DNA of 64,000 nt, taken from contig JAFOFB010000015.1 in assembly GCA_017387505.1 (NCBI GenBank), positions 1 through 64,000 of the forward strand, read 5' to 3'. Positions 1-34,870 of this stretch are shown here, in pieces. How positions within the stretch are numbered: position 1 is the stretch's first letter; the number at the start of each line of letters is the position of its first letter. Made by a program: the position numbers and the translations under genes. Under the pieces are notes generated by a model. It made no database searches, was not told the origin of the DNA, and saw nothing but the letters and a program-made list of their open reading frames with translations. The stretch is from Methanocorpusculum sp. GTDB lineage: Archaea; Halobacteriota; Methanomicrobia; Methanomicrobiales; Methanocorpusculaceae.

Positions 1-300
1 GGCTACTTGGAATCTGTGTATGAGGAATGTTTGGAGGATGAATTACTGAATGCAGGTTTTTCTGTGAAGCGTCAGGTTCGTATTCCTGTAATCTATAAGG
101 GAAAGGTGATGAAGAAGTGTTTCTATGCTGATATGGTTGTGAATGACTGTATTCTTTTAGAGTTAAAGGCTGTCTCTTCACTGAATCCGATGCATGAGAG
201 ACAGCTTGTGAGCTATATGAAATCTACGGGGATGAAGGAGGGGATGCTTCTGAACTTCGGGCATGTTAGAAGCCTACAATGGAGAGTATTCTCTCCATGA
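1..300 (+). CDS. GxxExxY family protein, 5' end cut off by the window
   Basis: The reading frame is open from base 1, so the start lies upstream. The first visible residues are GYLESVYEE, which matches the G-x-x-E-x-x-Y signature that names this family. A D...ELKA pattern follows (YADMVV, then ILLELKA), as in PD-(D/E)XK nuclease folds. About 99 codons are present; family members are near 120-125 residues, so about 20-25 are missing. Family membership is well supported by motif. A nuclease-like role is inferred from the fold, and no activity is known for most members. The codon use is plain and AT-leaning, as in accessory genes. Confidence 0.75.
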   Translation, partial: GYLESVYEECLEDELLNAGFSVKRQVRIPVIYKGKVMKKCFYADMVVNDCILLELKAVSSLNPMHERQLVSYMKSTGMKEGMLLNFGHVRSLQWRVFSP

Positions 301-347: not shown

Positions 348-356
348 ACTATAATC
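348..356 (+). promoter_or_regulatory. TATA box of candidate small RNA, copy A
   Basis: CTATAATC at 349-356 sits 33 bases before the first stem of the small RNA. The second copy has CTATATAC at 34733-34740, 34 bases before its first stem. The matching distance fits an archaeal promoter with its start site near 380. Confidence 0.5.
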
Positions 357-379
357 TCAGAAGACTAATTATTTCCTGT

Positions 380-491
380 TAAGTCGAAAAGTGGTATGAC
401 TGGCTGAACAGACTGGTAACCTGTTCATGAAAGCCGGTTCATCTCCTTTTCTTTTGAAAACTGTTCTGTGTTTATTTTTGTATTTTATTTT
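380..491 (+). ncRNA. Candidate small RNA, copy A (two hairpins, exposed CUCC, U-rich tail)
   Basis: Stem 1 is AGTC 382-385 with GACT 398-401. Stem 2 has an outer part GGCT 402-405 with AGCC 432-435 and an inner part GAACAG 406-411 with CTGTTC 421-426. It has a 9-base loop and a 5-base 3' bulge. A single-stranded segment with CTCC at 443-446 follows, then a T-rich tail to about 491. Copy B at 34764-34870 keeps the stem-2 loop and bulge lengths and shows compensated pair changes. The exposed CUCC could pair with Shine-Dalgarno sequences. Function is inference; the structure is read from the sequence. Confidence 0.6.
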
Positions 492-26475: not shown

Positions 26476-26706
26476 GCACTCATCCGAGGGTTTGAATCCC
26501 GGATATCGGTGCTGACTGAAGTAAGTCCGACGTGTTTCAAAGACACTGCCTTTCAAGGCTTAGGGATTACGACGAGTCAGCATAATTCACATTACGAACT
26601 AGTAATGCATGCTGCTCTTTTCGTGACTTACGCAGATTTCTGAACAACAGCGATACACAGGAATCTGTTCGTCAGGATGTACGGTTCTGACGCAGTCGAT
26701 TAATCG
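26476..26706 (+). ncRNA. Highly structured region upstream of rps15
   Basis: Hairpin GCAC 26476-26479 with GTGC 26509-26512 encloses TCCG-a-GGG/CCC-GGA. Next, GCTGACT 26511-26517 pairs with AGTCAGC 26575-26581 and encloses GTAA-g-TCC/GGATTAC and two small hairpins (GTGT/ACAC, CCTT/AAGG), giving a cloverleaf-like fold. Further hairpins are CATTAC/GTAATG, a 10-pair stem CAGATTTCTG/CAGGAATCTG and GTCAG/CTGAC. No ORF is supported. It may be a separate small RNA, an S15 mRNA leader, or both. I could not match it to a known family. Confidence 0.5.
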
Positions 26707-34350: not shown

Positions 34351-34453
34351 CGCGAAAGTGCGTTTGGAGGTTTTATGGGGTTTATTTCCTGTTTTGCCTC
34401 TTTATATGTCTTTGTTTTTTTTTACATTTTTCAAAATAAGGGGCACTTTCGCG
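34351..34453. repeat. 11-base inverted repeats around a T-rich segment
   Basis: CGCGAAAGTGC (34351-34361) and GCACTTTCGCG (34443-34453) are exact inverted copies, 81 bases apart. The inner part holds the word ACATTTTTCAAAAT that also occurs near 30791. It may be a small mobile remnant or a large stem-loop. Confidence 0.5.
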
Positions 34454-34515: not shown

Positions 34516-34581
34516 CAGGGGTTTATATAGTTGAAGATTGAATCATAAGATGCTGGGAGTAATGGCCCAAGCAATTTAAAG

Positions 34582-34590
34582 GGAGGTGAT
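34582..34590 (+). promoter_or_regulatory. Full-length Shine-Dalgarno sequence
   Basis: GGAGGTGAT is the complete complement of the 16S rRNA 3' tail, the strongest ribosome site in this window. It has no annotated gene behind it, only the mini-ORF at 34594-34683. Confidence 0.7.
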
Positions 34591-34593
34591 ACA

Positions 34594-34683
34594 ATCTTCC
34601 AATATGTCATGGCAACACTTGCAATTGCTATTCTCATATCCCGTGAAATTCGGGAATGGTTGCAGTTGTTGAAAAAGAAATAA
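34594..34683 (+). CDS. Candidate hydrophobic mini-protein, holin-like-toxin-like
   Basis: Up to 29 residues: (I)FQYVMATLAIAILIS followed by REIREWLQLLKKK. It has one hydrophobic helix and a Lys-rich end, the layout of bacterial type I holin-like toxins. The Shine-Dalgarno spacing favours ATC 34594 as start; the first in-frame ATG is 34609 (24 residues). A hairpin (AAATAATG 34678-34685 with CATTATTT 34700-34707) spans the stop, and the small RNA copy B follows. The start is uncertain and the reading is speculative. Confidence 0.35.
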   Translation: MFQYVMATLAIAILISREIREWLQLLKKK

Positions 34684-34732
34684 TGAGGGGTCATACCTCC
34701 ATTATTTAATCCACTTGCTATGAGGGAAATTC

Positions 34733-34740
34733 CTATATAC
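34733..34740 (+). promoter_or_regulatory. TATA box of candidate small RNA, copy B
   Basis: CTATATAC, 34 bases before the first stem of the RNA. This is the same distance, within one base, as in copy A. Confidence 0.5.
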
Positions 34741-34763
34741 TTGCACATCATAAGTATTACTTG

Positions 34764-34870
34764 CAAGACATATTGGAAGATGTCCGGGTGAACGGAGTCA
34801 TTAACCGTTTATTAAACCCGGAGTACCTCCTTTTGAAGACTTTTCTGTGTTTATTTTAGTATTTTTTTTT
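34764..34870 (+). ncRNA. Candidate small RNA, copy B
   Basis: Stem 1 is GACAT 34767-34771 with ATGTC 34780-34784. Stem 2 has an outer part CCGGGT 34784-34789 with ACCCGG 34816-34821 and an inner part GAACGG 34790-34795 with CCGTTT 34805-34810. The 9-base loop and 5-base bulge match copy A. CCTCC is exposed at 34826-34830, followed by a T-rich tail matching copy A over about 40 bases (34830-34870). Pair changes against copy A are compensated in both stem-2 parts. Confidence 0.6.

Follow-up and report, generated by a model that had tools for sequence, protein, structure and literature searches.

Type I Antitoxin RNAs and a Predicted Methanocorpusculum Family

In Escherichia coli, the type I systems tisB/istR-1, shoB/ohsC, zor/orz and dinQ/agrB combine a small hydrophobic toxin with an antitoxin RNA that is not encoded opposite the toxin and that pairs with the toxin mRNA within its long 5' UTR and not at the start site, as far as the account in PMC4147584 extends. 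The Methanocorpusculum family described here is predicted to share the toxin type and the displaced, pairing antitoxin. Its genes lie in tandem, whereas those of the E. coli systems are divergent, and its predicted pairing covers the Shine-Dalgarno (SD) sequence and the start codon. Fst/par_pAD1, of the Fst/Ldr family, has two contacts in common with those predicted for the archaeal loci, a loop-based kissing start and a second region over the toxin start site, in the outline given in PMC7472228. Unlike the Methanocorpusculum family, it is bacterial, encodes another peptide and has convergent genes with a common terminator and repeats. Within the compass of PMC12390103, type I systems are known only from Proteobacteria, Firmicutes and Tenericutes, to which a cyanobacterial locus was added in 2025. 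No archaeal type I system was found in the literature searched, mostly papers outside subscription, which is not proof of absence.

The RNA considered here is present in a stretch of 64,000 nucleotides (the window), the start of a contig in a Methanocorpusculum genome of 1.43 Mb, 24 contigs and 83.5% completeness. We give a probability of roughly 0.8 to the reading that the family represented by copy B consists of predicted RNA antitoxins of neighbouring small membrane peptides, working in a type I-like way, and that copy A is an orphan member. The class is assigned from sequence, and transcription, repression and toxicity are predicted properties. An antitoxin covariance model built from 15 copies and a toxin profile built from 24 peptides were each searched against 25 genomes of the genus. 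Some of the contigs in this sample come from goat cecum and water deer colon.

The Small RNA and Its Hairpin

The first-pass annotation described a small RNA in two copies, both on the forward strand, and both sit where it placed them (copy A at 348-491 and copy B at 34733-34870). It had noted a TATA box, two stems, a linker ending in CTCC and a T-rich tail. Box, linker and tail are all present, and the box precedes the RNA in the 15 aligned copies. In copy A, the TATA-like box (348-355) is followed by an antisense segment (381-397), the conserved hairpin (398-440, with loop CTGGTAA at 413-419), an anti-SD-like ATCTCC (441-446) and the T-rich tail (451-491). In copy B, the corresponding elements are the TATA-like box (34733-34740), the antisense segment (34767-34781), the hairpin (34783-34822, with the candidate kissing loop at 34797-34803), the anti-SD sequence ACCTCC (34825-34830) and a tail (34830-34870) that is 90% identical to that of copy A over 41 bases and is the probable end of transcription.

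Folding of the 71-base cores gives, in both copies, the two-part stem with a 9-base loop and a 5-base bulge as the hairpin of minimum energy (z -2.39 and -2.13). In the 15 copies, its 12 pairs are 97.2% paired, and 7 of the 12 have changed on both sides. The covariation score was reached by 0 of 500 shuffles and the signal was lost when the partner was slid; a measure of further pair types was not above the shuffles (382 of 500). The two compensated changes seen earlier between copies A and B correspond to columns 39/69 and 45/58, where the family variants are C-G/U-A/G-C and A-U/G-C. The proposed first stem did not survive. It was dropped because, across the 15 copies, the folds predicted for the stretch from TATA box to hairpin have no stem in common. 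The distance from TATA box to transcription start in archaea is usually about 25 bases; if it holds here, much of that segment should fall upstream of the transcript.

The count of two copies was too low for the genome, although it is right for the window. The antitoxin model has 33 matches, spread over 8 of the 25 genus genomes, and this genome accounts for 10. In the window, copies A and B are the only significant matches, a third one having E 0.58. The earlier statement that no family has this layout stands as far as Rfam goes, with 0 matches at gathering scores at either copy. The three Rfam matches within the window are two tRNAs and an S15 leader. The leader (S15-Methanomicrobia ribosomal protein leader, RF03137, at 26493-26570) agrees with the host group. 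A dispersed archaeal RNA pairing with ribosome-binding sites had also been suggested. This holds in outline, but the target is specific, a short peptide gene, which adjoins the RNA in most loci. By sequence, the target is recognised through an antisense stretch (the former first stem and the linker), the CUCC and a loop-loop contact.

The Copy B Cassette

A cassette on the same strand lies upstream of 10 of the copies first examined, copy B included. It opens with a TATA-like box and a short UTR that contains a small hairpin; GG(A/G)GGTGATA then precedes a 28-30-codon ORF, whose stop codon lies within or just before a terminator-like hairpin. A second TATA-like box and the small RNA complete the order. 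For copy B, all features are on the forward strand. The putative promoter of the toxin gene is a TATA-like box (34522-34529, TTTATATA) that is conserved before the UTR in the toxin-gene alignment. The 5' UTR hairpin (34552-34572) has a loop (34560-34566) complementary to the hairpin loop of copy B, with which it co-varies over 20 loci. The SD sequence GGAGGTGAT (34582-34590), recognised in the toxin-gene alignment, precedes the predicted toxin ORF of 29 codons plus stop (34594-34683). The ATC start of this ORF is assigned from spacing, and an in-frame ATG occurs at codon 6. Its profile match has E 1.8e-14, the sequence itself being a row of the profile. A terminator-like hairpin over the stop codon (34678-34707), followed by TTTAA, has a paired region conserved in the 10-locus alignment.

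Upstream of the copy B toxin (window 34353-34451) there is an inverted repeat, CGAAAGTGC ... GCACTTTCG, with arms about 80 bases apart. Both arms are found in 11 of 20 toxin loci examined, and one arm in L010. There are 10 exact occurrences of the pattern in this genome, 5 of them beside a toxin by coordinates, and exact matches are found in only 6 of the 25 genus genomes, all six of which have SD-type loci.

The Predicted Toxin Peptide

The copy B peptide has its hydrophobic half first, then S-x-E-I-R-x-W and lysines. Among 24 peptides, the S, E, R and W of S-x-E-(I/L)-R-x-W are invariant, with a hydrophobic N-terminal half and a net positive C-terminal half. Type I toxins are small and usually hydrophobic, with fewer than about 60 residues; here there are 28-30 codons and the N-terminal half is hydrophobic. 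In 22 ORFs, the conserved half shows 0.315, 0.171 and 0.475 differences per site at codon positions 1, 2 and 3, and the hydrophobic half 0.544, 0.384 and 0.628, so that position 2 changes least, as expected for a translated frame.

Start codons in the SD-type ORFs were assigned by reading from SD spacing. They are ATA, ATC, ATT, ACG or CTG in 25 of 29 distinct ORFs, 7-8 bases after GGAGG/GGGGG. The others are L026, with ATG one codon earlier, and three G017 ORFs with ATG, GTG or TTG. Some ORFs also have an ATG, GTG or TTG in frame at a later codon, and the GTG within the SD sequence is in frame in L002, L003 and L004. Two toxin frames are irregular. L045 (G000:C21:4055-4141) has an in-frame stop and an altered UTR, with an antitoxin-like hairpin remaining, and the frame of L039 (G013:C9:58215-58301) extends past the usual stop after a run of A.

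The toxin profile has 46 matches in 9 of the 25 genus genomes, 15 of them in this genome; among the 12 most complete genomes, 3 have matches. Toxin and antitoxin matches share the same 8 genomes, and G008 has one weak toxin match with no match to the antitoxin model. Outside the genus, 207 other genomes in a search of the order gave 0 matches at E 0.001 or better, and 391 other genomes of a phylum sample gave 0 at 1e-4; distant relatives can be missed because the profile has only 29 positions. Two scans of viral contigs gave no relative of the family. For 5 of the 24 peptides, Pfam, NCBIfam and PHROGs gave nothing significant (best E 0.027, a PHROGs family of unknown function).

Predicted Pairing of Antitoxin and Toxin mRNA

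At the sequence level, the RNA is complementary to the mRNA of its toxin, as in type I systems. The antisense segment of copy B is complementary to the first toxin codons (34594-34608). Co-folded with its own mRNA, copy B forms duplexes of 15 bp (antisense segment) and 12 bp (ACCTCC with the SD region), with the hairpin intact between them; the duplex with its own toxin start region is worth -26.4 kcal/mol. The wording of the antisense stretch varies by locus, and in a first test the own neighbour was best in 10 of 10. Among 21 non-redundant loci, the own neighbour is both row and column maximum in all 21, a fit reached in 0 of 100,000 permutations with relatedness of loci uncorrected. L043 and L034 (near-identical to L026), L031 (near-identical to L041) and L045, with its in-frame stop, were left out of the antisense, loop and co-folding sets, and L036 also out of the latter two. 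In co-folding, every one of the 20 rows and 20 columns has its largest gain with the own partner; the means are -22.9 and -6.4 kcal/mol for own and other partners. The weakest own gain (L002, -11.9 kcal/mol) is below the strongest non-cognate one (-17.4 kcal/mol). The hairpin is kept between two duplexes in the structures of the 20 loci, the inner part of L004 being drawn differently.

Loop of the RNA and loop of the UTR co-vary as well. The pairs include GTCATTA/TAATGAC, TAGTTA/TAACTA, TTCGTTAC/GTAACGAA, TTGTTA/TAACAA, TTGGTC/GACCAA and TGGTTA/TAACCA. Over 20 loci, the fit was reached in 0 of 100,000 permutations (relatedness of loci uncorrected), stronger than in an earlier test of 10 loci (130 of 100,000). 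Because loop types recur between loci, the own partner does not always score highest: it is the row maximum in 14 of 20 loci and the column maximum in 15 of 20. In L002, L015 and L041 the loop pairing is only four to five bases. L004, mis-folded by the script, scored 3, and six bases match by eye. Since toxin and RNA are not copies of each other, the persistence of such a fit through changes in both suggests that pairing is under selection.

In a wider test, each of the 46 toxin matches (L045 counted) was given a partner sought in the next 335 bases, with a cut-off of 13.5, the 95% point of non-cognate antisense scores. A partner at or above 13.5 was found downstream in 34. L025 lies exactly on the cut-off, and for L025, L035, L037 and L041, which pass, 1-3 foreign start regions score higher. 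The other 12 include three at contig ends (L044, L046 and G012:C15:2-46), two split by insertion (L049 and L042), the broken L045 and six weaker ones below the 95% point (L036, L069b, L072, L078, L080 and L081). G012:C15:2-46 is a fragment that clears the cut-off through a match without meaning, and it is counted as unpaired; L069b, L072 and L080 are part of the second-subtype test described below. Among the 46, then, no intact toxin has been shown to be without a matching RNA: 34 have it close by, 2 at 4.6-4.8 kb, and 10 are ends, broken or weak.

A Second and a Possible Third Subtype

In the second subtype, frames of about 50 codons begin with ATG without an SD sequence, and the RNA covers UTR and ATG. 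For 10 such loci, the antisense fit was reached in 0 of 100,000 permutations (row-best and column-best in 9 of 10) and the loop fit in 6 of 100,000 (10 of 10), again with relatedness of loci uncorrected. The loop pairs include TTGTG/CACAA, TCGTG/CACGA, TTTGC/GCAAA and TTCGC/GCGAA. In L070-L080, of this subtype, the toxin frame passes a hairpin and T-run (AAAAGGATGATGAATCTCATCCTCCTTTT) into the promoter-like region of the antitoxin before it reaches a stop; if the hairpin at AAAAGGATGATGAATCTCATCCTCCTTTT terminates transcription, the mRNA would lack a stop codon. L081 (G008:C33) and L069 (G000:C15:553-639) may be a third subtype, with ATG start, no SD sequence and, by eye, the loop pair GACCAAA/TTTGGTC.

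Orphan RNAs and Distant Pairs

Copy A is predicted from its sequence to be an orphan antitoxin of the same family as copy B. It has no neighbouring target. A 19-base pattern with up to 3 mismatches, searched in the 25 genomes, hit copy A, its relative L008 (also an orphan) and three other places with 2-3 mismatches; the reversed control pattern hit at a similar rate. The best duplex of copy A with any of 29 toxin start regions is -18.7 kcal/mol, compared with -26.4 kcal/mol for copy B and its own toxin, and no toxin with the target of copy A was found in either set. Directly upstream of copy A (window 7-300) is a nuclease-like ORF of the PDDEXK_3 (GxxExxY) type (Pfam PF13366); the orphan L116 in G012 likewise follows an ORF that reads, by eye, like it.

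Five RNAs have no toxin just upstream (copy A, L008, L013, L116 and L117), while L097 is too close to a contig end to be judged. Two of the orphans fit toxins encoded in another genome. For L117, in this genome, these are toxins of G012 (-29.0 kcal/mol) and G007 (-28.8 kcal/mol); for L013, in G012, it is one from this genome (-25.9 kcal/mol). Other pairs are far apart. In G012, toxin L049 is about 4.8 kb from its fitting RNA L016 (-29.3 kcal/mol), and in G013 toxin L042 is about 4.6 kb from L014, the RNA that fits it. A gene with a DDE transposase domain adjoins the RNA in L016, and the inserted stretch has, by reading, mirrored ends and a 10-base flanking duplication. Orphans and pairs split by insertion indicate that the RNA need not be the 3' end of its toxin's own transcript.

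Proposed Mechanism and Alternatives

In the mechanism that we propose, the small RNA would be transcribed on its own and make first contact by a loop-loop kiss with the UTR hairpin. It would then zip onto the start region and the SD sequence, giving a three-way junction around its own hairpin, and pairing there would shut out the ribosome. Once the RNA runs out, the peptide would harm the membrane. In most SD-type loci, the near-cognate starts (ATA, ATC, ATT, ACG and CTG) may keep leakage low.

The antisense, loop, second-subtype and co-folding evidence would fit equally well if the RNA repressed its neighbouring ORF and the peptide were an ordinary small membrane protein, one of a family regulated by small RNAs; toxicity is predicted, and the searches with 5 peptides matched no known toxin. 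The loci are patchily distributed, with toxin-profile matches in 9 of the 25 genomes, and genomes carry several diverged copies; some antitoxins are orphans, and the toxin copy L045 is broken. Such features are usual in toxin-antitoxin loci but would be strange for a housekeeping peptide, and we regard this alternative as unlikely. It is very improbable that toxin and antitoxin are a single RNA whose 3' part folds back on its own start region. The antitoxin is indeed on the same strand and close downstream, but a terminator-like hairpin and a second TATA-like box stand between ORF and RNA, five RNAs have no toxin upstream, and in two genomes 4.6-4.8 kb separate toxin and matching RNA, with a DDE transposase gene beside the RNA.

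The first-pass annotation would amount to a general anti-SD RNA that damps many mRNAs. The CACCTCC end, which resembles the 3' end of 16S rRNA, could pair with any strong SD sequence; what gives specificity, however, is the loop together with the stretch 5' of the hairpin, each matched to a single neighbour, and the second subtype has no SD contact. The anti-SD sequence was dropped as sole specificity element because of this match of loop and antisense stretch to the own neighbour, and such a general role seems to us scarcely credible. We give practically no weight to a functionless, neutrally dispersed repeat. There are many copies, and some loci carry an upstream inverted repeat that is present elsewhere too, but neither compensated pairs nor the co-variation of two different genes would arise without selection, the copies are diverged rather than near-identical, and the antisense permutations, loop permutations and hairpin covariation all contradict it.

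Beyond the predicted type I-like antitoxins themselves, a wider proposal is about an even bet. In it, archaea would have type I systems, and this family would be self-diversifying, with some 15 toxin-profile matches per genome at most, each with its RNA key (a kissing-loop code and a split antisense address). Non-AUG starts would hold toxin translation down, and orphans such as copy A would give immunity against toxins of other strains or elements. The family, some 30 naturally varied RNA-RNA pairs, offers material on how orthogonal antisense specificities evolve, and it may provide a handle on methanogens of livestock guts.

Comparison with Other RNA-Controlled Systems

AapA1/IsoA1 of Helicobacter pylori uses loop-loop pairing, and its antitoxin is encoded opposite the toxin. 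CreTA has archaeal as well as bacterial examples. AapA1/IsoA1 is, as predicted for the family described here, a type I arrangement regulated via toxin-mRNA structure, in the account of PMC6733600; unlike that family, AapA1/IsoA1 is bacterial and has another toxin. CreTA is likewise a toxin-antitoxin system controlled by a small RNA, to the extent covered in PMC9458426 and PMC10097628. Its toxin is an RNA, and its antitoxin serves as guide for a CRISPR effector; here, by contrast, a peptide is the predicted toxin and a plain antisense RNA the predicted antitoxin. In Methanosarcina mazei, sRNA162 acts on a transcription-factor mRNA, and the account of it that we draw on claims no toxin-antitoxin pair.

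Type I prediction in TADB 3.0 needs toxin and antitoxin on opposite strands, as set out in PMC10767807, a prediction rule and not a definition of type I. Toxin and RNA are on the same strand in every locus examined that has both parts, so TADB 3.0 would not find the Methanocorpusculum loci. Orphan toxins labelled type I have been listed via TADB 3.0 in marine genomes (PMC12654330), where the part drawn on leaves unstated whether any are archaeal. Common search rules would miss the family because its ORFs are tiny, mostly lack ATG and share a strand with the RNA. If our reading is true, it carries type I into a second domain of life, with a peptide, a gene order and a pairing geometry of its own.
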